Positions 7,901-64,000 of a stretch of 64,000 nt of DNA are shown here, one piece after another; position 1 is the stretch's first letter, and each line of letters begins with the position of its first letter. The DNA lies in assembly GCF_024349785.1 (NCBI RefSeq), contig NZ_AP018817.1, forward strand, positions 775,501-839,500, read 5' to 3'. The translations under genes were made by a program, and so were the position numbers. The notes beneath the pieces are model-generated. The model saw nothing but the letters and a program-made list of their open reading frames with translations. It was not told the origin of the DNA and did no database searches. This DNA is from Sphingomonas bisphenolicum (GTDB lineage: Bacteria; Pseudomonadota; Alphaproteobacteria; Sphingomonadales; Sphingomonadaceae).

Positions 7901-10900
7901 TCACTCGGCGGGGTGCGGATGCCCCGGCCGGTCCTTGTCGTCGCCCGCCTTGTAGGTCAGCAGGCCCCGGCCCAGCCGCGGTCCGATCCAGCTTTCGATC
8001 CCGACCGCCAGGCTGAAGGTCGCCGGCACGATCACCAGCGTCAGCACCGTCGACAGCAGCAGGCCGCCGATCACGGTGATGCCCATCGGCGCGCGCCAGG
8101 CACCGTCGCCCGACAAAGCGAGCGCAGTCGGCACCATGCCCGCGACCATCGCCACCGTGGTCATGACGATCGGCTGTGCGCGCTTGTGCCCGGCATCGAC
8201 GATGGCGTCGAACTTGGGCACGCCCTTCTCCATCTCCTCCAGTGCGAAGTCGATGACGAGGATCGAGTTCTTGGCGACGATACCCAGCAGCATCAGCAGG
8301 CCGATCAGCACCGGCATGGAAATGGGTTCTCCGGCGATATGCAGCGCCAGCGCGCCGCCCAGCGGAGCGAGCAGCAACGAGCCCAGGTTGACGAAGGGCG
8401 GCATGATCCGCTTGTACAGCAGCACCAGCACCGCCAGCACCAGCAGAATGCCGGATGCGACCGCGATCATGAAATTGGTCAGCATTTCCGCCTGGAACTT
8501 GCTGTCGCCGGCATTGATCTTCTGGATGCCCTGGATCTTGCCCTCATTGATCGCCTTCATCAGCGGCAGTGCGTTGATCTTTTGCGTCGCCTGGCTGGTG
8601 ACGATGCCCGGCGCCAGATCCGCGCCCACGACGATGCGGCGGATCTGGTTGTAGCGGCGGATCTGCGTCGGCCCTGCGCCGAAATGGATGTCGGCTACGA
8701 CCTTGAGCGGCACCGATCCGCCACTGACGGTCGGCACCGGCATGTTCTGGATCGTCGCGATATCCTTCCGACTATCCTCGGCGATCGACACGCGGATCGG
8801 GATCTGGCGGTCGGACAGCGAGAATTTGGCGCTGTTCTGGTCGATATCGCCGATTGTCGCGATGCGGATGGACTGGCTGAGCGCGGCCGTGGTCACGCCC
8901 AGGCTGGCGGCCAGGTCGAGGCGTGGCGTGATGATGATTTCGGGCCGCTGCATGTCGCCCTGCACGCGCGGCGCGCGCAGTTCTTGGATGCGCGCCATCT
9001 CCGCGACGAGCTGGTTGGCCGTGCGTTCCAGCTTTTCCGGGTCGTCCGACCCGAACATCATGATGATGTCGCGGCCAAAGCCGCCGCCCGACTGCGACTG
9101 GAAATTGACCCGCGCGTCGGCGACGGTCTGGAATTGCGGCGCGATCTTACGCTCCCAGTCGACCGAACTGATCGGGCGCGTCTTCTTGAGCGTCAGGAAG
9201 ATGTCGGCCGTGGTCGGCTCGATATCGGCGAAGGCCGCCTCAACGACGTCGGTATCGGCGGCCAGCATGTCGGCGACCTTGCGGGTGATGGCGGTGGTCT
9301 GCGCCAGCGTGCTGCCCGGCACCGTTTCGATCTTCACCTGGCTGAAATCGGTGTTGGTCGTCGGCTGGAACGTCATCGGCAGCGTGGCGAAGGCGATGAT
9401 CGTGGCGATGAACGCCAGCGCGCCGATGCCCACCGTCCACATCCTGTGATCCAGGAAGATGGCGGTGAAGCGTCGCCAGCCACCCCGCGCGCGATGGGCG
9501 ATCGCCCGGCGCTCGTCGAGCGACCAGCGCAGCACGCTCATATAGCGGTCCATCATCCAGCCTTCGCCATGGCTTTCCTCGCCATGGGCTTTGAGGAAAT
9601 AGGCGGCGATCATCGGCGTGATGAGGCGGGCGACCGCCAGGCTCATCAGCACCGACACGACCACGGTCATCCCGAACTGGATGAAGAACTGGCCCGATAT
9701 GCCGGGCATCAGCGCAACCGGCAGGAATACCGCGACGATCGCCATGGTGGTGGCCAGCACGGCCAGGCCGATCTCGTCCGCCGCGTCGATCGACGCCTGA
9801 TAGGCGGATTTGCCCATGCGCATGTGGCGTACGATATTCTCGATCTCCACGATGGCGTCGTCGACCAGCACGCCCGCGACCAGGCTGAGCGCCAGCAGCG
9901 AAATGCCGTTCAGCGTGAAGCCCATCATCTCCATGAACCAGAAGGTCGGGATCGCCGACAGCGGGATCGCCAGCGCCGAAATCATCGTCGCGCGCCAGTC
10001 GCGCAGGAACAGGAAGACGATGACGACCGCCAGCACCGCGCCCTCGATCATCGCGGCCATGGCCGAATGATATTGTTCCTTGGTATAGCCGACGCTGGTG
10101 TAGAGTTCCTTGAACTGAACTTTGGGATTTTCGACCTTCAGCTTGTCCAGCACCTTCATCGCATTGTCGTAGACGGTGACGTCGGAAGAGCCCTTGGCCT
10201 TTTCCATGCTGAAGCTGGTGACCTGCCGCCCGTTCATCAGCGACAGGTTGCGCTGTTCGGCATACATGTCGCGCACGTCGGCAATGTCGGCCAGCTTGAC
10301 CGTGCGGCCGCCGCTGATCGCGATCTGGGTCGCGCCCAGGTCGCGGGCGTTGCGGGCGTTGCCCAGCACGCGGATCGACTGTTCGGCGCCGGCGATCTCG
10401 GTACGGCCGCCCGCGGCGTTCAGGTTCACCTGCTGCAACTGGGCGTTCACCTGCGCCGCGGTGATACCGAATGCCTGAAGCTTGGCCGGGTCCAGGATGA
10501 CGCGGATTTCGCGGCTGACGCCGCCGCCGCGATTGACCGCCGCCATACCGCTGACCGACAGCAGCCGCTTGGCCACGGTGTTGTCGACATACCAGGACAG
10601 TTCCTCCAGCGTCATGTCGGTGGCCTCGGCGCTGAAATAGGCGATGGGGCCGCCATCGATGTCGATGCGCTGGACCTGCGGTTCCAAAATGCCGTCGGGC
10701 AAGTCGCTGCGGATCTGGTCGACGGCGTTCTTGACGTCGTTGACCGCGCGATCGACCGGGGTGCCGATCTGGAACTGGACATTGGTCAGCGACCGGCCTT
10801 CGGACGCGAAGGAGGTGATTTCGTCGACGCCGCTGATGCCGCGCACCGCCGCCTCGACCCGCTGGGTGACCTGCGTCTCCAGCTCGGTCGGCGCCGCGCC

Positions 10901-11065
10901 CGGCTGTAATACGGTGACGCTGACCATCGGGAAGCTGATGTCGGGGTTGTTGTTGACGTCCATGCGCATGAAGCTGACGATGCCCGCCAGCATCAACGCG
11001 GCGAACAGCACCAGCGGCGTCACCGGGTTGCGGATCGCCCATGCGGAAATGTTACGAAAATTCAT
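7901..11065 (-). CDS. RND (HAE-1 family) multidrug efflux permease
   Basis: A 1,054-residue inner-membrane proton antiporter of the AcrB/MexB class. It has the first transmembrane helix at about 13-30, a large periplasmic porter domain beginning with the [13 protein letters not shown] segment, TM4 with the proton-relay pair [11 protein letters not shown] (near 400), and a second half with the same architecture ending in a cytoplasmic tail. It would pump hydrophobic or amphiphilic compounds through a tripartite complex. The upstream gene on the same strand encodes the periplasmic adaptor; no TolC-type outer-membrane gene is present here. Substrates cannot be deduced. Confidence 0.96.
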
Positions 11066-11212
11066 GACGGGCTTCCTTCACCGGACGCGCTGGCGCGTCC
11101 GTCCAACCTGTGCCGGACGCAGCAGCGCGTCCCTTCGACCTGTTCGGCGCGTCCATGGCGCGCATTCTGCCGTCCGGGGGACGCGCGCGGCCGGCGTCGG
11201 CCGCGCCGTTTC

Positions 11213-12385
11213 CTAGCGGCCTTTCAACAATTCCGGCTTCACCTTCTGCCCCGGCGCCAGGAAAGCGCCGGCGGAGGTGACGATGCTTTCCGTGCCGTCG
11301 ATGCCGCTGGTCACGGCAACGCCGGCGTCGGACACCTGGCCGACGCTCACGCTGCGGCGCTCGACCTGATTCTTGGCGTTGACCACATAGACATAGCTGC
11401 CCTTGGCGTCGCTCTGCACCGCCGATTCGGGCAGCAGGGGGGCGCTGCCCGATCCGCTGGTGATGGTCGCGGAGGCGAAGCCGCCCGGCCGGATCGCCGG
11501 ATTATAGGCGATGGCGATGCGGGCGATACCCTGGCGCATCTGGGGATCGACCACCGGCGATACCTGCCACACGCGTCCGGCGAACTGGTCGCTATGGCCG
11601 ATCGGCGTCACGGTCGCGCTGTTGCCCGGGCGCAGCGTCGCCAGATCACCCTCGGCCACCTGCGCCTGCAACTCCATCTCGCCATCCTTGGCCAAACGGA
11701 AGAGCACGCCGCTGCCCGCCTGGACGATCTGGCCCGGCTCGACCGCGCGGGTCAGGACCAGGCCGGATGCCGGGGCGCGAATGTCCAGCCGCCCGGTGCG
11801 GGCGCGCTGTTCGGCGAGTTGCGCCGCGGCGACGTTCACGCGCGCCACCGCCGCATCGCGGGTCGCGGTGCGCTGATCGATGTCGGCGGCGCTGATGAAG
11901 CCGCGACTGACCAGCGCCTTGGCGCGGTCGAGCTGGGCCTGGGCGAGCTTGGCGTCCGCGCGGGCCACGTCCACCTGCGCGGCGAGCGAGCGCACCTGTT
12001 CCACCTGGACCGACCGTTCGATGATCGCCAGCGGCTGGCCAGCGCGTACCCAGTCGCCCGGTTGCACCAAAACCCGCGTGACCATGCCGCCTTCGCCGAC
12101 AACGCCGACCGGCATGTCGATCCGCGCCGCGAGCGATCCCGTCGCGCTGACGGTGCGCGACACGACCGACTGGCCGGGGCGGATCACGGTCACGACCGGC
12201 ACCTGCGCCGCAGGAGCGGTGGGGGCGGCGGCGGTGTCGCCGCGCATCGATATCCAGGCGGCCGCGGCGACCAGCAGAGCGGCCACGCCGCCGCCGATCA
12301 GCAGCAGGCGTTTGCGCCGCCGGCGCGCCTCATCTTCGTCGATGACGACCATCGAGTCGCCCACCAGCTGGGTTTCGTAATTCAT
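11213..12385 (-). CDS. RND efflux periplasmic adaptor (membrane fusion protein)
   Basis: 390 residues from ATG 12385; a longer frame to 12424 lacks support. A basic cytoplasmic stretch (RRRRKR) and one transmembrane helix (about 27-45) anchor it. These are followed by the HlyD/AcrA-like barrel-sandwich half-motif, an alpha-helical hairpin rich in Ala/Gln/Arg (about 130-190), the second lipoyl half (IRAPASGLVLTRAVEPGQIV) and beta-barrel domains. It links the permease to an outer-membrane channel. It is transcribed first, 147 bp before the permease, in the same operon. Confidence 0.94.
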   Translation of the reverse strand: MNYETQLVGDSMVVIDEDEARRRRKRLLLIGGGVAALLVAAAAWISMRGDTAAAPTAPAAQVPVVTVIRPGQSVVSRTVSATGSLAARIDMPVGVVGEGGMVTRVLVQPGDWVRAGQPLAIIERSVQVEQVRSLAAQVDVARADAKLAQAQLDRAKALVSRGFISAADIDQRTATRDAAVARVNVAAAQLAEQRARTGRLDIRAPASGLVLTRAVEPGQIVQAGSGVLFRLAKDGEMELQAQVAEGDLATLRPGNSATVTPIGHSDQFAGRVWQVSPVVDPQMRQGIARIAIAYNPAIRPGGFASATITSGSGSAPLLPESAVQSDAKGSYVYVVNAKNQVERRSVSVGQVSDAGVAVTSGIDGTESIVTSAGAFLAPGQKVKPELLKGR

Positions 12386-12627
12386 GCCGCTTCTCGTCTC
12401 TCCGGCGCATCGCCATTTCGGCAACTGTGTTATATGAATATAGCACCGCTCTCAACCCCCAATATCATGGTTCAAAGGCGGACGGCAAAGCGATTATGCG
12501 CGATGGAAAGGGCCGGAATGGCGATATGTCGTTGTCATCCCTCCCCTTGGACCACATTGACTTGCCAAAGGCTCAGGATTGTGGCGCAATGATCGCCCGC
12601 GCGGCATCCGCCGCCGAGGAGCGCGCC

Positions 12628-12876
12628 ATGGACTTGCTGGGATGGATCGTGGTCGGCCTGCTTGCGGGCGCTATCGCGCGGCTGATAATGCCCGGCCGTG
12701 ATCCGGGCGGCTGCGTCGTCACCATATTGCTGGGCATTGCCGGGGCGTTGTTGGCCGGGTTCGTCGGTCGGCTCGCCGGCTTTTATGCGACCGGCGAGCG
12801 CGCTGGCTTCGTCGCCGCCATCGTCGGCGCGATCGCGGTGCTGGCGCTCTACCGGTTTTTCGCGGCGCGCCGCTGA
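12628..12876 (+). CDS. GlsB/YeaQ/YmgE family stress-response membrane protein
   Basis: 82 residues from ATG 12628, with GAGGAG well placed upstream. Three hydrophobic helices with the family's Gly-rich pattern: WIVVGLLAGAIARLIMPG, then a GCVVTILLGIAGALLAGFVG segment, then a C-terminal helix. These small inner-membrane proteins are often stress induced; the molecular role is unknown. It is convergent with a second member of the same family, across a shared terminator. Confidence 0.88.
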   Translation: MDLLGWIVVGLLAGAIARLIMPGRDPGGCVVTILLGIAGALLAGFVGRLAGFYATGERAGFVAAIVGAIAVLALYRFFAARR

Positions 12877-12884
12877 GTGGACGC

Positions 12885-12917
12885 AAAAAAAGGGCCGCGC
12901 CGTGGCGCGACCCTTTT
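12885..12917. terminator. Bidirectional terminator between the two GlsB-type genes
   Basis: A seven-A tract, GGG-CC-GCGC stem pairing with GCGC-GA-CCC (one mismatch), and a T-tract form a symmetric hairpin between two convergent genes. Confidence 0.8.
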
Positions 12918-12936
12918 GGTTGAGTGGGATTTGCGT

Positions 12937-13191
12937 TTAACGCATCGACCCGCGGCGAACCAGATTGACGATTGCCAGCAGGATGATCGCGCCGACCAGC
13001 GACACCAGGAAGCTGTACAGCGTCAGCCCTTGGTTGATCGATCCGCCGCTGAAGATCAGGCCGCCGATGAAGGCGCCGACGATGCCGACCACGATGTTAA
13101 GCAGGATGCCCTGCTGTGCGTCGGTGCGCATGACCATGCTGGCGAGCCAGCCGATGATGCCGCCGACGATAAGCCACAAGATGATGCCCAT
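12937..13191 (-). CDS. GlsB/YeaQ/YmgE family stress-response membrane protein
   Basis: 84 residues from ATG 13191, preceded by AAGGAG six bases upstream; the longer frame reaching 13392 runs through a hairpin and is not coding. Three hydrophobic segments include MGIILWLIVGGIIGWLASM and a Gly-rich middle helix (GIVGAFIGGLIF), as in transglycosylase-associated (YeaQ-like) proteins. A GGAAC-N16-CGTT promoter lies about 46-70 bp upstream, so general-stress control by an EcfG-type sigma factor is likely. Molecular function is unknown. Confidence 0.9.
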   Translation of the reverse strand: MGIILWLIVGGIIGWLASMVMRTDAQQGILLNIVVGIVGAFIGGLIFSGGSINQGLTLYSFLVSLVGAIILLAIVNLVRRGSMR

Positions 13192-13236
13192 ATTACTCTC
13201 CTTGACCACGCCCCCAGCGGGTTGGGTGCTGCATTC

Positions 13237-13261
13237 AACGGAGGAGAGAGCGTCCCGTTCC
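13237..13261 (-). promoter_or_regulatory. Putative EcfG (general stress sigma) promoter for the GlsB-type gene
   Basis: On the minus strand GGAAC (-35, 13261-13257) is followed after exactly 16 bases by CGTT (-10, 13240-13237). This equals the EcfG consensus known from sphingomonads and other alphaproteobacteria. It is positioned upstream of the start at 13191. Confidence 0.6.
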
Positions 13262-13345
13262 ATGTGTGTAAAAATGATTCCGGACTGGAAACCATCTTGG
13301 CTTTGCGCCGTTTGAACGCCCCCGGCGGTCGATTTCCCGCTCGCA

Positions 13346-13389
13346 GAGCCAAAGGGCCGCCGGATTTGCATCCGGCGGCCCTTTGGCTC
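13346..13389 (-). terminator. Perfect 20-bp hairpin, probable sciP terminator
   Basis: Arms 13346-13365 and 13370-13389 are exact inverted copies around a 4-nt loop, with an inner GC-rich stem and CCCTTT near the outer end. It lies 24 bp downstream of sciP and would act as its terminator; a poly-U run outside the stem is missing. Confidence 0.7.
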
Positions 13390-13412
13390 CATCCTGACGG
13401 CGTGATCGCCGG

Positions 13413-13712
13413 TCAGTATTTCTGCTGGCGCTCGTAGAGCGACTTATAATATTGGATGCGGGTGACGCGCAGGCCATGCATGCCCGACCGGTCGACCGCC
13501 CGCTGCCAGCCGGCAAATTCCTCCAGCGTCAGATTGTAGCGCGAACACGCTTCGTCCACGCTCAGCAGGCCTCCATTCACCGCTGCGACGACTTCCGCCT
13601 TGCGCCGCACCACCCAGCGTGTGGTGTCGGCCGGCGGCAGGCTGTCCAGGGTCAGGGGTTCCCCAAGTGGCCCGACGACCTGAGCCGGCTTGATTTTCTG
13701 GTTCTCGATCAT
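13413..13712 (-). CDS. sciP: SciP-type CtrA inhibitor (DUF1153)
   Basis: 99 residues from ATG 13712, with GAGGG just upstream. The sequence is the conserved DUF1153 protein: MIENQKIKPAQVVGPLGE at the N-terminus and a helix-turn-helix with TRWVVRRKAEVVAAVNGG, then ACSRYNLTLEEFAGWQ and VDRSGMHGLRVTRIQ. In Caulobacter SciP binds DNA and the cell-cycle regulator CtrA and blocks CtrA-dependent transcription in G1. Identification is by sequence; a cell-cycle role here is inferred from the family. Its presence supports an alphaproteobacterial host. It is a single-gene unit. Confidence 0.93.
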   Translation of the reverse strand: MIENQKIKPAQVVGPLGEPLTLDSLPPADTTRWVVRRKAEVVAAVNGGLLSVDEACSRYNLTLEEFAGWQRAVDRSGMHGLRVTRIQYYKSLYERQQKY

Positions 13713-13818
13713 TCTTACCCTCAAAGTGCGGCACTGGCGTTACCGAATTCAACAGTGAAACCCTTATCTGCTTCAGCCCTGAAGAACGGCTAAAGCGCCA
13801 CGGTAAACACTGCCTTCA

Positions 13819-14115
13819 TCATTCCTGCCCCCTGGCTAAACGGCTCGCGATCAACGGGTTGAAACTTCCCGCGAGACGCACGGCTTCGATCTTGCCGCCG
13901 GAACGTGGCGCGAAAATGCCCGCCAGTTCCTGGATCCAGTCGTCGCTTCCGCCCTGCCCCCGCAGGACGCCCGCCACCGCCTGCGCGGTCGGACTGGCCG
14001 CCTGCGCCGCCGCCGTAGCGGCCCGCAGAAACGGCCAGGCCGGCACGCGCGGCCGGCTGAGGGGTCTGGGAGTGCCGGGCTTCAGCCCGCCACCCCGAAG
14101 GAAACTCAGATCCAT
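13819..14115 (-). CDS. Hypothetical small protein
   Basis: A 98-residue open frame between sciP and mnmA, starting at ATG 14115 with AGGGGG very close upstream. The composition (Ala, Pro, Arg rich at the start; IQELAGIFAPRSGGKIEAVRLAG in the middle) looks more protein-like than the competing frames. No domain is recognised, and no signal peptide is evident. It may be a genuine lineage-specific gene or a chance frame in GC-rich DNA. Confidence 0.4.
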   Translation of the reverse strand: MDLSFLRGGGLKPGTPRPLSRPRVPAWPFLRAATAAAQAASPTAQAVAGVLRGQGGSDDWIQELAGIFAPRSGGKIEAVRLAGSFNPLIASRLARGQE

Positions 14116-57302: not shown

Positions 57303-57389
57303 GCCCAGATGGCGGAATTGGTAGACGCACCAGCTTCAGGTGCTGGCGATCGCAAGGTCGTGGAGGTTCGAGTCCTCTTCTGGGCACCA
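57303..57389 (+). tRNA. tRNA-Leu (anticodon CAG)
   Basis: A class II tRNA of 87 nt including an encoded CCA. Acceptor GCCCAGA pairs with TCTGGGC; the anticodon arm CCAGC-TTCAGGT-GCTGG gives anticodon CAG (Leu). The variable arm is long, as for leucine, and the T-loop GGTTCGAGTCC is standard. The 3' end is the integration target of the adjacent element and is shared with the 165-bp inverted repeat. Confidence 0.95.
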
Positions 57390-57537
57390 TTTGTTCTCAA
57401 AGCATTGATAATGCTGGGGGATCGTCGGCAAGACGGTCCCCAGAGAGCGTCTGCTACACAGAACTGCTACACAGTCCGGGGCACCAATCGTCCCCAAACC
57501 CTCGGAAAACTGCCGTAAATGGTCGTGAGGGCTGCTA
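57373..57537 (+). repeat. Left copy of a perfect 165-bp inverted repeat (attL-like)
   Basis: Identical, in inverted orientation, to 58970-59134 over 165 bp with no mismatch found by eye. It begins at the tRNA-Leu T-arm (TCCTCTTCTGGGCACC...) and so contains the tRNA 3' end. It also holds two CTGCTACACA direct repeats 13 bp apart. It flanks the tyrosine integrase gene on its 5' side. Confidence 0.95.
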
Positions 57538-57554
57538 CACAGCACTGCTACACA
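57451..57554 (+). repeat. Two pairs of CTGCTACACA direct repeats
   Basis: Copies start at 57451, 57464, 57532 (one base shorter match) and 57545; within each pair the spacing is 13 bp. The first pair lies in the inverted repeat, and the second straddles and follows its inner end. Direct repeats next to an att core are typical of arm-type sites bound by the N-terminal domain of tyrosine integrases. Confidence 0.6.
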
Positions 57555-57631
57555 ATCGGCCTGTCGGACTGTGTATCCGGGGCACGCAGTTCTATTACCG
57601 TCGCAGGATTCCGCATGACGCTCGCGCGCTC

Positions 57632-58972
57632 ATGGGCCGCGCCGAGATATGGCGGTCGCTTCGAACGGACAGCTTGAAGATCGCCTTGCGGCGGTTGCCC
57701 AGCGCCATGGCTCGGGTCGAAGCAGAGATCGAACATCGCCGCTGGGCCGCTGGTCTTCATTGCGATCCGACGCTCCTCGAACCGTCGTCGGACGATGCCA
57801 TGCCAAGGAGTCAGGCGATCCCTGATGCGGCTCTGGTCGAGGCGGAGCCATCGCCTCCTGTTCCGACCAGCAGCCTCACCCTTGGCGAAGCATACGAGCA
57901 GTATATGACCGATCCGACGCAGGGGTGGTCAGCCCGAACGCGGGAAGCATATGAGACAAGCCGCAGGCTTGCCGTGTCGATCATCGGCAAAGACGTTCCC
58001 ATGCGATCGCTGGCTCGCGCCCATTGTCGCGACTATATCGATGTTCTGCGTTTCATGCCGCGCAACGCCGCCAAGCGGTTCCCGAAGCTCACCGCCCGCC
58101 AAGCCGCCGATCGGGCTCGAACGCGCGGCGAAACCGACCTCATCAGCGCAGCAAACGCCAACACCTGTCTCGCCAACCTGTCGAGCTTCCTGAACTGGGC
58201 TGTCAATGAGGAGCTACTCGATCGGAATCCGATACGCGGCCTGCGTCTGCCCGACGACACTGCCAAGAAGGACAAGCGCTTTCCGTTCAGCCCGAGCCAG
58301 CTACACGCGATCTTCAACGCTCCGCTCTATCGGGGGTGCTTCGATGGGGAGCGCGGATACGCTAAACCGGGAATCGAGCGGCCTCGGAATGCACGTTTCT
58401 GGGTGCCGCTGATCGGCCTACACACAGGCATGCGATTGAACGAAATCTGCCAACTCGATGTCGCCGATATTCGAACGGTCGATGGGGTGCGTTGCTTCGT
58501 GATCACCGAGGAGTCTGTTGCCGGGAGCACTGACAAGAACCTCAAGACGGGCGCGAGTGAGCGCCTCATGCCGATCCACAAGAACCTGATCGACTGCGGG
58601 CTGCTACACTTCGTTGACAAACAGCGCCGCGCTGGTCGTATGAAGCTGTTCGAGGAGATTGACCCCGGCACCAAGGGCGTGCGGTCGGTCGCGTTTTCAA
58701 AATGGTTCACGCAGTTTCTTCGAAGCTGCGGTGCCTATCAACCTCGCACCTGCTTCCATTCATTCCGTCATAACTTCCGAGACGAGTTGCGTGCCGCACG
58801 TGTAGACCATGACCTTGCAATGGCGCTTGGCGGATGGACGAACGGAACGGGGAAGCGGGGAGCATCCGAGAACTACGGCAGCGGGCATCGGGTGGCCGTG
58901 CTGGCAGAGGCGGTCAGCCAGCTTACCTTCCGCGAAGTGGATATCTCACATCTGGCGTGGAACGCCAAATAG
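57632..58972 (+). CDS. int: Tyrosine-type site-specific integrase
   Basis: 446 residues from the first ATG (57632). Catalytic residues are visible: Arg in LHTGMRLNEIC, H-x-x-R in FHSFRHNFRDEL, Trp in ALGGWTNGTG and the nucleophile Tyr in SENYGSGHR. Homologous residues (RGTQFYYRRRIPHDARALMG) precede the ATG in frame from about 57581. That frame is open back through the tRNA with no ATG, GTG or TTG near, so the start is uncertain or lost. The stop codon lies within the right inverted repeat. It should act on the tRNA-Leu 3' end. Confidence 0.88.
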   Translation: MGRAEIWRSLRTDSLKIALRRLPSAMARVEAEIEHRRWAAGLHCDPTLLEPSSDDAMPRSQAIPDAALVEAEPSPPVPTSSLTLGEAYEQYMTDPTQGWSARTREAYETSRRLAVSIIGKDVPMRSLARAHCRDYIDVLRFMPRNAAKRFPKLTARQAADRARTRGETDLISAANANTCLANLSSFLNWAVNEELLDRNPIRGLRLPDDTAKKDKRFPFSPSQLHAIFNAPLYRGCFDGERGYAKPGIERPRNARFWVPLIGLHTGMRLNEICQLDVADIRTVDGVRCFVITEESVAGSTDKNLKTGASERLMPIHKNLIDCGLLHFVDKQRRAGRMKLFEEIDPGTKGVRSVAFSKWFTQFLRSCGAYQPRTCFHSFRHNFRDELRAARVDHDLAMALGGWTNGTGKRGASENYGSGHRVAVLAEAVSQLTFREVDISHLAWNAK

Positions 58973-59134
58973 CAGCCCTCACGACCATTTACGGCAGTTT
59001 TCCGAGGGTTTGGGGACGATTGGTGCCCCGGACTGTGTAGCAGTTCTGTGTAGCAGACGCTCTCTGGGGACCGTCTTGCCGACGATCCCCCAGCATTATC
59101 AATGCTTTGAGAACAAATGGTGCCCAGAAGAGGA
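58970..59134 (-). repeat. Right copy of the perfect 165-bp inverted repeat
   Basis: Exact inverse of 57373-57537. It includes the integrase stop codon at one end and an inverted copy of the tRNA-Leu 3' end at the other (TGCCCAGAAGAGGA). A shorter inverted fragment of the same core, TGCCCAGAAGA, recurs at about 59220. Confidence 0.95.
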
Positions 59135-59218
59135 GTATGCCAAGGTGGGTGATCGAGGTCGCCGGGTAGTGTCGAGTTTTGTCCTGCCTTTTCAATGGTG
59201 GGAGGGCTTGAAGGTTCG

Positions 59219-59488
59219 ATGCCCAGAAGAACACCCGAACCGCTGCGGTCTTCATCGGCGTTGAGTGATGGGGCGCGCTCTGTGGTATGGGCGGTCTTGG
59301 TCATGGACGAGGGCTCGGTGATAGATCGGCATAACGAGGAGTGTTTGGACGGCGATGATGAGCCGTGCCCGATCTGCCGGGGTGAAGAACTCGACCCGGA
59401 CTTCCTCGCGCGTATCGAGCAGGCAGGCGCGCAGCCGGGAATGGCGATGACCTTCGACGAGGCGATGGACTGGTTTCGCGCTTGCTGA
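59219..59488 (+). CDS. Hypothetical small protein
   Basis: 89 residues from ATG 59219 (an internal ATG at 59303 may be the true start). Acidic C-terminal half with HNEECLDGDDEPCPICRGEE and EQAGAQPGMAMTFDEAMDWF; a CPIC pair could bind metal. No family recognised. It lies between the integrase cassette and the truncated recombinase and probably belongs to the mobile element. Confidence 0.5.
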   Translation: MPRRTPEPLRSSSALSDGARSVVWAVLVMDEGSVIDRHNEECLDGDDEPCPICRGEELDPDFLARIEQAGAQPGMAMTFDEAMDWFRAC

Positions 59489-59956
59489 TCAGGCGGCGAG
59501 CGCCATCTGCTGCTTAACCCGATGGACGGTCGCGACACCGACCTTGAGCTTCTTGGCCGTGGCGTTGATGGAGACGCCCTTGGTGAGGGAGCGCTTGATA
59601 CGCTCGACTTTCTCGGCGTCGAGGGGCGGTCGGCCTGACCGTTTCGTGGATCGCGCCAACCCGGCCTTGATCCGGGAGATGATCATCTCGCGCTCGAAGT
59701 CGGCGAACACCGACAGCATGCCGAACATGGCGCGTCCGCTGGGCGTGCTGGTGTCGAGTGCTTGCTGGTGGAGATACAGGTCCACCCCCTTGGCGTTGAT
59801 CTCGGTGAGGAAGGTGACGAGGTTCTGGAGGGAGCGTCCGAGCCGGTCCACGGCCCAGCTTGCCACCATGTCGATCTCGCGCCGCGCGACAGCCTTCATC
59901 AGCGCGTCATAGCCGGGGCGCTTGTCACGTCCCTTCGACCCGCTGATACCGTGGTC
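59489..59956 (-). pseudogene. Serine recombinase (resolvase/invertase family), 5' truncated by IS21
   Basis: Visible from TDHGISGSKGRDKRPGYDAL, through VASWAVDRLGRSLQNLVTFL and FADFEREMIISRIKAGLARS to a C-terminal helix-turn-helix (RIKRSLTKGVSINATAKKLK). The catalytic serine region (about the first 45 residues) is missing: upstream of TDHG the sequence is the end of the IS21-family element. Reading frames that continue into the IS are artefacts. The missing 5' part is not found on the other side of the IS, so a deletion accompanied or followed the insertion. Not functional. Confidence 0.88.
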
Positions 59957-60070
59957 GGTGTGTTGATTGCTGCTGAGAAGTGACCCGGGGAAGCCAGTAA
60001 TTTCCACTGAGAAGTGACCCATGTTTGAACACGTCCCTGGCTTTGAGCGGGGGACCATGGAGTGTTGGAC

Positions 60071-61594
60071 ATGGCATTATTGAGCGTTATCCGGCGCTGG
60101 CATTACCGCGATCATCTGTCGATCCGGGAGATAGCCAAGCGCACCGGTCTATCCCGCAACACCGTCCGTAAGTATCTGCGGTCGGACACAGTCGAGCCGC
60201 AGTTCAAGGTGCCTGAGCGGCCGAGCAAGCTGGACCCGTTCGTCGAGCGACTGACGACCTGGCTCAGACGAGAGATGGGCCGTTCGCGCAAGCAGAAGCG
60301 AACCGTGAAGCAGTTGCATGCCGATCTGGTGAGCCTGGGCTTTGATGGATCCTATGGCCGTGTCGCGGCCTTTGCTCGTGCCTGGCGCGATGATTATCGC
60401 CGGCAGCAGCAGGTGAGCGGACGCGGCACCTTCGTGCCGCTGTCGTTTGCGCCGGGTGAGGCGTTCCAGTTCGACTGGAGCGAGGACTGGGCGATCATCG
60501 ATGGCGTGCGCACCAAGCTGCAGGTGGCGCACTTCAAGCTCAGCTACAGCCGTGCCTTCTTCGTGCGGGCCTATCTCCTTCAGACCCACGAGATGCTGTT
60601 CGATGCCCATAATCATGCGTTCCGCGTGCTGGGCGGGGTGCCGCGGCGCGGCATCTACGACAACATGCGCACCGCGGTCGACAAGGTCGGACGCGGCAAG
60701 GAACGGACCGTCAATGCCCGCTTCCTGACGATGGTCAGCCATTATCTGTTCGAGGCCGAGTTCTGTAATCCGGCAGCGGGCTGGGAGAAGGGCCAGGTCG
60801 AGAAGAACGTGCAGGATGCGCGCCATCGGCTCTGGCAGCCTGTTCCCCAGACCGAGACGCTCGACGCGTTGAACATCTGGCTTGAAGCGCGCTGCAAGGC
60901 GCTGTGGCAGGATATCCCACATGGTGTTGAGCTTGGTTCGGTCGCCGATGCCTGGGCCGATGAGGTGGCGAGCCTGATGCCGATGGGACGGCCGTTCGAC
61001 GGCTTCGTCGAGTATGGCAAGCGGGTCTCACCGACCTGCCTCGTCCATCTGGAGCGTAATCGCTACAGCGTTCCGGCGTCCTTCGCCAACCGTCCTGTCA
61101 GTGTGCGGCTCTACCCGGACCGCTTCCTCGTCGTCGCAGAGGGGCAGCTGCTATGTGAACATCAGCGGATCATCGATCGATCCCATGATGGGCCGGGACG
61201 CACTGTTTATGACTGGCGCCATTATCTGGCGGTCGTCCAGCGCAAGCCTGGCGCCCTGCGCAACGGCGCGCCGTTCCTCGAGATGCCTGAGGCCTTCCAG
61301 CGGTTACAGCGCCATCTGCTGCGATCCCCCGGCGGCGACAGGGAGATGGTCGAGATTCTTGCGCTGGTGCTGCATCATGATGAGCAGGTCGTGCTGATGG
61401 CGGTCACCATGGCGCTGGAGGCCGGTGTTCCGACCAAGACTCATATCCTCAACCTTTTGCACCGGCTGATCGACGGTAAGCCGCTGACAACACCGCCGAT
61501 CACGGCGCCACAGGCGCTAAGACTGGTCAGCGAGCCGATGGCCAATGTGGAACGCTATGACGCCCTGCGTCGGGAGAACCGCCATGCGTCATGA
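60071..61594 (+). CDS. istA: IS21-family transposase IstA
   Basis: 507 residues from ATG 60071, with GGAG eight bases upstream; GTG 60062 is in frame. N-terminal helix-turn-helix ([20 protein letters not shown]) and a DDE catalytic core: Asp in [15 protein letters not shown], Asp in [11 protein letters not shown] and Glu in [14 protein letters not shown]. The C-terminal beta-domain ([20 protein letters not shown]) is typical. Overlaps istB by 11 bp. It looks intact and so is potentially active. Confidence 0.96.
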
Positions 61595-62366
61595 TCCCGC
61601 CAGCGGCGCCATCATCGTCATGCTGCGCAGCCTCAAGATGCATGGCATGGCTCAGGCCGTCACCGATCTCATGGAGCAGGGCGCGCCAGCGTTCGATGCG
61701 GCGGTTCCGATCCTGTCACAACTGCTCAAGGCGGAGACCGCCGAACGGGAGGTGCGATCGGTATCCTATCAGCTCAAGGCCGCACGGTTCCCAGCCTATC
61801 GCGACCTAGCGGGCTTCGACTTTGCCAGCAGCGAGGTCAACGAGGCGCTGGTTCGCCAGCTCCACCGCTGCGAGTTTATGGATGTTGCCGACAATATCGT
61901 GCTGGTCGGCGGCCCCGGCACGGGCAAGACCCATATCGCCACGGCCCTGGGCGTCCAGGCCATCGAGCATCACCGCAAACGGGTGCGGTTCTTCTCCACG
62001 GTCGAGCTCGTCAACGCGCTCGAACAGGAGAAGGCCCAGGGCAAGGCGGGCCAGATCGCCGGAAGGCTCGCCCACTCCGATCTCGTGATCCTCGACGAAC
62101 TTGGCTATCTGCCGTTCAGCGCCTCAGGCGGTGCACTGCTGTTCCACCTGCTGAGCAAACTCTACGAGCGCACCAGCGTCATCATCACCACTAACCTGAG
62201 CTTCAGCGAATGGGCCACCGTCTTCGGTGACGCCAAAATGACCACCGCGCTCCTCGATCGGCTCACCCATCACTGCCACATCCTTGAGACCGGGAACGAC
62301 AGCTTCCGCTTCAAGAACAGCTCGGCTCAGCAGCCCAAAACCAGAAAGGAGAAAACCCCATCTTGA
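61584..62366 (+). CDS. istB: IS21-family helper ATPase IstB
   Basis: 260 residues from ATG 61584. AAA+ ATPase of the DnaC/IstB type with Walker [13 protein letters not shown] (109-116 core), Walker [15 protein letters not shown], sensor 1 [13 protein letters not shown] and the Arg region [16 protein letters not shown]. It helps IstA choose the target. Intact, translationally coupled to istA. Confidence 0.96.
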
Positions 62367-62529
62367 CCCACCCCTGACATCCGAAACATAATCGCAAGGT
62401 GGGTCACTTCTCGATGAAAACCCCGGGTCACTTCTCAGCAGCAATCAACACACCCGTGGATTTGGGAATTCGGGGTACCTGAAGGTATCTTTGTGGGTAT
62501 CGGCCAACATGGCCACGGGAGATACCCTC

Positions 62530-62676
62530 ATGGCACTTTCAGCCCTCGCGCTGGCCAAAGCGAAACCCCGAGAAAAGCTCTACGAGCTGGCGGACGGGCA
62601 TGGACTGGTGACACCTCAAGGCGGTCGCTACTGGCGCATGAATTATCGTTTCGACGGCAAGGCCAAGACCGGTCGT
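62530..62676 (+). pseudogene. 5' fragment of a P4-type tyrosine integrase
   Basis: From ATG 62530: MALSALALAKAKPREKLYEL, ADGHGLVTPQGGRYWRMNYR, FDGKAKTG, then the frame breaks off at about 62676 where an IS5-type transposase fragment begins. This is the N-terminal arm-binding domain (DUF4102) of P4-like integrases, and the catalytic part is gone. It sits directly beside the IS21 right end and shows a second integration event in this locus. Non-functional. Confidence 0.85.
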
Positions 62677-62860
62677 AGCGCGTCGCGACCCGTCGCCAGT
62701 CCTTGAGGCGGCCGAACATGATCTCGATGCGGTTGCGCCATTTGTAGCGGCGCTTGTCGTGTTTGACGGCCTTGTTCCGAGATTTGCGACCGGGGATGCA
62801 GGGGGGATATCCTTTTCCCCTAAAGCATCGCTCCGGCGACCCTGCCAGCGCCTTGGCCCG
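62671..62860 (-). pseudogene. Fragment of an IS5-family transposase
   Basis: On the minus strand: KGYPPCIPGRKSRNKAVKHD, then KRRYKWRNRIEIMFGRLKDW and RRVATRYDR, the C-terminal end of IS5-type transposases (DDE Glu in the RNRIEIMFGRLKDWRR motif). It is truncated at both ends and fused to the P4-integrase fragment at about 62671. Reading upstream appears frameshifted. Remnant only. Confidence 0.8.
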
Positions 62861-62901
62861 TTCGCGCATAAGGCAGGACGGGTCGGCATGTCGATCACTC
62901 C

Positions 62902-62935
62902 AAAAATATGGCCCACCCCTTGCGAGGTGGGCCAT
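62902..62935 (-). terminator. Terminator of the TonB-dependent receptor gene
   Basis: Minus-strand stem ATGGCCCACC pairing with GGTGGGCCAT (62926-62935, 62908-62917), 8-nt loop, then T-run (62906-62902). It follows the receptor stop at 62962. Confidence 0.85.
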
Positions 62936-62961
62936 CTTACCCCCGAGGAGGGCGGGCAAGC

Positions 62962-64000
62962 TCAATATTTGATGTTGAGGGTCGCGATCGCCGTCCGCCC
63001 GACCGCCTGGTTGGCATAATGGGCGGCATAGGCCTTGTCGTAATAACGTTTGTTGAAGACGTTGTTGACGTTGACCTGCAGGTTCACCGCGTCGCTGAAG
63101 CTGTACGACGCATTGCCGTCGAAGCGCCAGTAGCTGGGCACCATGCGGGCCAGTTCCTTGGTGATGACGACCGCGCCGTTGGTGATGGTGCGCAGGTCAG
63201 AATAGCCGCCATAGACCTTGCTCATGTAGATCGCGCCACCACCGATGGTGAAGGCCGGCGTCACCTTATAGTTGGTGAAGGCGGTGAAGCTGTGCTTGGG
63301 CGTGTTCGGGAACTGCTTGCCGGTATTGACCGACGGTGCATAGAGCGTGACACCGCTGACGGTGGTCGCCGTAAAGCCGCCGTCGACGATCTCGGAGTCC
63401 ATATAGGTGTAGCCGCCAAAGACGTTCCATTCCGGCGTGATATTGCCGTTGAACCCGACTTCGATGCCCTTGATGAGGCGTTCGCCGATAAAGGCGACGG
63501 TACCGGCATCGTTGGTGGCGCGGGCATTCTTGGTTTCTGTGCGGAACGCCGCCAGCGTCAGCGCCAGGCTGTCGTTGAACAGATTGGCCTTGGCGCCGAT
63601 TTCATAGGATTTGGTCTTTTCCACCTTGAGCGCGTCGGTCAGCGCCTGGCTGGTGGTGTTGAGCGCATTGCCCTCCGCGCCGTTCGCGATGAACGAACCG
63701 GGAGGCGTCGCGGCGGTCGAGGTCGACGCGTAGATGCTGCTGCTTTCCGTCGGCTTGAAGACGATGCCGGCCTGATAGGTCCACAGGTCGTCCTCGCGCT
63801 CCAGGACGATCCGGTTGGCGGTTGCGGTCGCGGCGAGGCCGGGGCTGACGGTCGTCTTATACTTGTCGAACCGACCGCCCAGGTTGATCAGCAGCTTGTC
63901 GCTGATGGTGATCGTGTCGAACAGCGACGCCGCCTGGGTCGTGGTCTTGGACATGGTCCAGGTCTTGCGCAGGCTGCGAACGATGGGGGAGACGACCGAC
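62962..64000 (-). CDS. TonB-dependent outer-membrane receptor, C-terminal part
   Basis: The frame is open to the window edge (residues SVVSPIVRSLRKTWT precede the first internal Met at 63954), so the gene continues beyond 64000. The visible ~345 residues are beta-barrel strands typical of siderophore receptors: TYQAGIVFKPTESSSIYAST, YEIGAKANLFNDSLALTLAA, GIEVGFNGNITPEWNVFGGY, NYKVTPAFTIGGGAIYMSKV and the C-terminal NVNNVFNKRYYDKAY and TLNIKY. The plug domain and TonB box are outside. Ligand not deducible; a catecholate or other siderophore is likely. Confidence 0.92.
   Translation of the reverse strand, partial: SVVSPIVRSLRKTWTMSKTTTQAASLFDTITISDKLLINLGGRFDKYKTTVSPGLAATATANRIVLEREDDLWTYQAGIVFKPTESSSIYASTSTAATPPGSFIANGAEGNALNTTSQALTDALKVEKTKSYEIGAKANLFNDSLALTLAAFRTETKNARATNDAGTVAFIGERLIKGIEVGFNGNITPEWNVFGGYTYMDSEIVDGGFTATTVSGVTLYAPSVNTGKQFPNTPKHSFTAFTNYKVTPAFTIGGGAIYMSKVYGGYSDLRTITNGAVVITKELARMVPSYWRFDGNASYSFSDAVNLQVNVNNVFNKRYYDKAYAAHYANQAVGRTAIATLNIKY

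Follow-up and report, generated by a model that had tools for sequence, protein, structure and literature searches.

Two inverted attP copies in the reading frame of a tRNA-targeting integrase gene: a possible self-latching switch in a bacterial element family

We analysed a stretch of 64,000 nucleotides from Sphingomonas bisphenolicum, called the window here. It is likely that the window holds the integrase (int) end of an element that carries two inverted attP copies inside the int reading frame, and that integration of this element severs a leader from int. We give about even weight to a wider reading, in which a bacterial family with dual inverted in-frame attP forms a self-latching switch. 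Int would silence itself and lock the element in, and the spare attP would allow rare reversal with the tRNA unharmed. As read from sequence, the architecture, the shared frame, and both severed and joined junctions occur in nature.

Inverted arms around the integrase gene

The tyrosine integrase gene adjoined an intact tRNA gene in the window and was bracketed by two arms. The features were located as follows.

57303..57389, plus strand: intact tRNA-Leu(CAG) gene, the integration target (ARAGORN)
57373..57389, plus strand: attL core, the last 17 nt of the tRNA, exact, with two genome copies
57373..57537, plus strand: left arm, consisting of the core and an attP arm, with two CTGCTACACA motifs (57451, 57464)
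57374..57631, plus strand: open int frame through the arm and the first part of DUF6538, without ATG, GTG or TTG
57632..58972, plus strand: int, with a partial DUF6538 domain and a Phage_integrase domain
58970..59134, minus strand: right arm, the exact inverse of the left arm, with the int stop codon as its inner end
59123..59134, minus strand: core 1, inverted (full 17 nt at 59118-59134)
59135..59221, minus strand: spacer between core 1 and core 2, encoding part of the leader
59222..59233, minus strand: core 2, inverted and degenerate, with 2 mismatches
58873..59304, minus strand: leader ORF of 143 aa in its present form (MTKTAHTT...), with homology to the N-terminal part of P0016 and P0023
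59489..60058, minus strand: serine resolvase ORF
59957..62454: IS21-family insertion, with 34-bp terminal inverted repeats and istA- and istB-like ORFs

The arms formed an inverted repeat of 165 nt (57373-57537 and 58970-59134), which was 100% complementary with its copies 1432 nt apart. This was far beyond chance. The initial annotation had reported a perfect 165-bp inverted repeat carrying the tRNA-Leu 3' end, and its coordinates proved exact. Both arms started with the final 17 nt of tRNA-Leu(CAG). This 17-mer core had exactly two copies in the 5.2-Mb, 6-contig genome, one per arm, and the whole 165-bp arm was also present twice in the host genome, with no copy beyond the window pair. The int stop codon TAG (58970-58972) was the start of the right arm. 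The degenerate core 2 was located 87 bp outside the right arm and was crossed by the minus-strand leader ORF. Some members had an inner attP split by a coding spacer of ~76-90 bp, a T-arm-like GGTTCGAGTCC and a second core; the inner attP had no spacer in L186, L187, L229 and L235.

The window copy looks decayed. No far attR was found in the host genome, where the core occurred only in the two arms, and no second leader copy was found there. As no far-end direct core repeat was found for it, the window element was filed as a remnant. The match of the resolvase to a relative started at the relative's residue 41, at position 59956, and ~40 N-terminal residues were lost at the IS21 edge. For this missing part, no good match was found across the IS21 element, within the window. 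Excision of the window element is probably not possible, and its cassette may still flip. A plus-strand ORF of 97 aa (...CPICRGEE...) was located at 59195-59488 and runs antisense to the leader. On inspection by eye, a CPICRGE-like coding stretch was also seen beside the leader in L119. Near the window end, a TonB-receptor-like C-terminal ORF was found on the minus strand (62962-63954), and the 145-aa ORF beside it (62528-62965) had no Pfam match. A further element of this kind was present in the host at tRNA-Phe (from C1:468464), with arms of 156 bp (99.4%). Besides int, the 3634-bp loop of this tRNA-Phe element (L176, G000:C1:458500-478499, 9964-13967) contained one more ORF and an IS-like transposase; beyond this came a direct repeat of 2520 bp.

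Recurrence among relatives and complete elements

A search of other genomes for int flanked by inverted tRNA 3' ends, as suggested earlier, gave 40 distinct int loci, the window included. Between them, they occupied tRNA genes specific for eight amino acids, namely tRNA-Leu, Phe, Lys, Gly (two anticodons), Ala (two), Val, Arg and Met. A one-off duplication was ruled out by these 40 loci. The arms of the 40 pairs were 87-466 bp long, and 26 pairs were identical and 38 at least 98% identical. The loop lengths varied by locus from 1363 to 4921 bp. A match in some other locus's arm over 70% of the length was found for 25 of the 40 arms (74-96%), and 15 had no matching arm in any other locus. The alignments indicate close similarity of the two arms of a locus and divergence from one locus to another, which makes the recent origin proposed from the perfect identity unneeded.

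Relatives of Int were taken from 80 genome contigs and were also sought by protein searches with a cutoff of E<=1e-60, which gave 18 of 396, 13 of 94 and 19 of 397 genomes in overlapping sets. Loci with identical int DNA were counted once, which left 66 full-length int loci. Identity classes were measured against residues 116-588 of P0016. Inverted arms of at least 87 bp were found in 37 of the 46 full-length int loci with at least 40% identity to P0016, in 2 of the 5 loci with 30-40% identity, and in none of the 15 below 30%. Only one of 52 partial loci had inverted arms. With four untestable loci set aside and two more counted that had arms cut near a contig end, the figure at >=40% identity was 39 of 42 testable loci. 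L039 and L185 had inverted repeats of 39 and 30 bp that reached within 161 bp of the contig end. Most of the upstream arm was missing in L036 and L189, and L060 and L184 ended within 700 bp. An inverted repeat of 87 bp was absent from the searched flanks of L043, L129 and L238. The loci L114-L131 and L133 were picked by arm DNA; L117, L118, L127 and L128 were counted among these, and all four were recovered again by protein search. In addition, an arm scan of 198 relatives gave a match in 48, and inverted pairs were found in seven genomes besides the host. The 549-aa fused integrase described below had partial matches in 55 plasmid records and 4 partial matches in phages, none of which covered 80% of it. 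Viral contigs gave 1 partial match, and solved structures gave none.

In complete relatives, the int module formed one end of a larger element, about 6-28 kb in length, which ruled out a self-contained 1.7-kb transposon. The G102 element was a 23.8-kb island that reached from tRNA-Leu to a far attR. The sequence abutting its attR core was repeated in inverted orientation behind the right arm of int over 947 bp (99.6%). A second inverted repeat was also found in G637 (768 bp), G492 (207 bp, 93%), G016b (1926 bp), G236 (1397 bp), and the G021 element of about 6 kb (378 bp). The circular attP was predicted by joining attR-left to attL-right. This predicted attP was present in inverted orientation behind int over 280 of 280 bp in G016b and G236, and at 97.5% of 276 bp in G492. 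In the case of G637 and G102, the inverted attP was found as two halves (100%/100% and 100%/99.2%) with a spacer of ~76-78 bp between them. These complete relatives therefore carry two attP copies in opposite orientation. The initial annotation had considered a minimal self-mobilising unit and a head-to-head joining of two elements. Neither is needed, since the inner arm of complete relatives was half of the second, inverted attP of the same element, and both attP belong to one element. The far inverted copy was found in 6 of the 14 elements examined, and inner parts only were found in 2 (G030, G088). It was not found in the other 6, which were G655, G427, the host tRNA-Phe element, the G016 tRNA-Phe element, G075 and the window. 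A far direct core repeat (attR) was present in five relatives and in G021. The far-end direct repeat of normal islands, which had been cited earlier as the expected arrangement, was thus seen in relatives and was not found in the window's genome. The int loop of G088 carried a passenger gene for a RhuM-family protein (L118:9492-10514, PF13310).

Two inverted sites per circle follow from the attR-attL joining in five elements, as far as these predicted circles are concerned. It is possible, and in our view unlikely, that the inverted attP pair serves chiefly for replication in a 2-micron-like manner, in which the flip drives amplification and the severed state of int is a by-product. In G016b and G236, the inner attP was the same as the predicted circular attP and both inverted repeats shared the core, so the circle would hold two long identical inverted copies that halve it. 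In addition, the cargo of G102 included one protein with a VapE-like helicase domain. Both observations would suit replication. However, neither a circle nor its copy number was observed, the inner copy was split by a spacer in G637 and G102, and replication alone would leave the shared reading frame unexplained.

The leader frame and the ON and OFF states

The preferred reading, in which integration severs a leader, concerns the frame of int. In the window, this frame was open from the tRNA core (PLLGTICSQ...) through the left arm, and its first start was ATG 57632. A start at this position would give an Int without about the first 23 of the 60 DUF6538 positions. The residues R268, K305, H376, R379, W402 and Y415, which we take to be the catalytic residues of Int, were invariant in a 6-protein alignment. 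The window leader ORF passed through core 2, the spacer, core 1 and the right arm, all in the frame of int. The order in frame was the leader ORF with its start codon, the core (tRNA 3' end), the arm and int, and the predicted attP lies within the integrase reading frame. When 57373-59134 was flipped in silico, the leader and int became a single ORF of 589 aa. It was collinear with the natural integrase P0016 (59%, residues 1 to 583), and tRNA-Leu was still called by ARAGORN. P0016 and P0023 both start like the minus-strand leader of the window. The proposal of the initial annotation that the segment is an invertible cassette keeping the tRNA intact held as a capability, given this flip and two relatives with int beside the leader; inversion within one strain was not observed.

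Among the 40 loci, int was severed from the leader (OFF) in 38 and was located beside the leader (ON) in 2. No single strain showed both the OFF and the ON orientation. In the OFF state, the tRNA was directly upstream of int in 35 of the 40 loci; L186, L187 and L230 had other or degraded targets upstream, and their leader or spacer lay past the right arm. In 31 of 34 OFF loci, the int frame stayed open across the arm (exceptions L055, L070 and L187). Beyond the inner arm, it was the longest of the three frames in 23 of the 26 OFF loci with at least 300 bp of flank (exceptions L037, L128 and L187). The int of L187 was broken by a frameshift. In a hand-chosen set of 17 loci, the stretch from the core to int was stop-free in the int frame in all 17, in the +1 frame in 8 and in the +2 frame in 2. 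A frameshift between the core and int was present in 2 of these 17 loci, L034 (= G021) and L035 (= G407).

The ON loci were G075 and G021. G075 had a fused leader-int ORF of 549 aa with a complete DUF6538, and its junctions fell at the 12-13 bp core, which would be too short for ordinary homologous recombination. In G021, the leader-int fusion was out of frame. Both ON loci, L117 (G075) and L119 (G021), were located at displaced tRNA-Leu fragments (ttcgag-core) and not at a tRNA gene. A broken attB that is unable to switch them OFF may be the reason why they stay ON. None of the 40 loci had the tRNA behind the right arm, as a simple arm-flip would give; this result and the 38 OFF against 2 ON ruled out a freely flipping cassette at equilibrium. 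Joined junctions were also looked for among proteins. At least 554 relatives of the fused protein were found, and in 24 among the 120 matches listed the EIW motif was preceded by more than 75 residues. When these 24 were inspected by eye, 11 read leader-core-spacer-core-arm, 3 read leader-core-arm, 7 read through the tRNA, and 3 were ambiguous. At least 14 natural proteins read leader-core-(spacer-core)-arm-int. A chimeric assembly is possible for the fused proteins with a spacer.

These results are consistent with the following mechanism. On integration, the attP that precedes int would be divided into attL and attR, and the leader would be cut from int (OFF). The second attP would be left inverted behind int, and for this reason int would be bracketed by inverted tRNA-end arms. 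The ON arrangement, leader-core-arm-int, would be restored either by circularisation, with attL recombining with the far attR, or by inversion, with attL recombining with the inner attP, and the tRNA gene would be whole in either state because both arms carry the tRNA end. On the circle, int would always be beside a leader, whichever the orientation of the cassette. After integration, only the int-severing orientation would be self-locking, and this would explain the 38 OFF against 2 ON. Int itself presumably catalyses the inversion, and the loss of the leader, with its start codon and perhaps a promoter, would silence int, so that the OFF state would act as a self-locking latch. A promoter scan of the window found 0 against 0.8 expected. 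If true, a mobile element would silence its own integrase by geometry and not by a repressor, and this would account for draft-assembly breaks at such islands and for mis-annotated integrase starts.

Somewhat less probable than the replication reading is that the arms are a passive relic of an inverted duplication, with the copies kept alike by homologous recombination, an internal start of int and no switch. The open arm frame would then be a DNA constraint from the repeated CTGCTACACA motifs, and these motifs did recur in the arm. Many OFF loci had a possible start codon near DUF6538, and possible internal starts were present in most of them. A start codon between the tRNA and DUF6538 was absent in only 4 of 33 tRNA-adjacent loci (the window, L038, L061 and L118), with L048 as a borderline case. 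L034 and L035 had an ATG right at DUF6538, and so did some in-frame loci. The apparent coding constraint on the arm was weak, which together with the often stop-free +1 frame also favours a relic. Over the 62 arm codons of 14 aligned, hand-chosen loci, from which the two frameshifted loci and L036 were left out, there was no gap and pN<pS was found in 80 of 91 pairs. The first 200 int codons gave pN<pS in 91 of 91 pairs for the same 14 loci. However, the arm pN/pS of five close loci was 0.61 in frame versus 0.87 and 1.68 in the shifted frames. The layout was kept across 40 loci, the leader was in the int frame in the 23 of 26 loci given above, and natural leader-int proteins exist, all of which argues against a passive relic. 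An assembly artefact at the repeat is very improbable: several draft contigs did stop at the arm or inside it (L039, L049, L053, L058 (within 3 bp), L048 (within 23 bp)), but the misassembly considered in the initial annotation was rejected by the recurrence of the same anatomy in 40 loci, some inside 2.6-5.2 Mb contigs (G102, G236, G637, G016), and by loop lengths that differ by locus.

Comparison with known systems

The dual inverted attP layout was not found described in the open-licence full-text literature, and a description may exist outside open-licence papers. The term DUF6538 was absent from the open-licence full-text literature searched. The FLP system of the yeast 2-micron plasmid consists of a tyrosine recombinase with two inverted recombination sites on one circle. 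On the circle of ICEclc, Pcirc reaches intB13. The element described here resembles the 2-micron system in its tyrosine recombinase and two inverted sites, with a circle that is predicted from sequence. Unlike the 2-micron plasmid, it integrates at tRNA genes, and the site is part of the recombinase gene. In the accessible text on ICEclc, the outward promoter Pcirc of intB13 is placed at 102,729 (PMC2892462, PMC9286271). As in ICEclc, expression of int would be tied to the other end of the element. In contrast to the ICEclc promoter, an in-frame start codon and a leader peptide would be supplied here, and there is an inverted spare attP.

Invertible phase-variation segments, such as PsrA of pneumococcus in the portion of PMC7096588 that was available, likewise involve a tyrosine recombinase and inverted repeats. 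However, the integrase gene would here be the very segment that inverts, and would do so at its own att sites. The sphingomonad integrative plasmid pPDL2 shares a tyrosine integrase and the use of a tRNA 3' end as attB, according to the available excerpt of PMC3516476. It differs in having two divergent copG-int-pgm units with attP at the 3' end of int1, and no inverted attP copies around one int are described in that excerpt. Finally, the self-disrupting (suicidal, SSV-type) integrases were called exclusively archaeal in the available sections of a 2021 review (PMC8371274). In these archaeal integrases, as here, the att site is inside the int frame, and integration splits the gene. Unlike the SSV type, only the leader is cut off here, with DUF6538 and the catalytic part in one piece; a second inverted attP remains, and the hosts are bacteria. 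If the reading given here is true, these elements would be a bacterial counterpart of the split 'suicidal' integrases.
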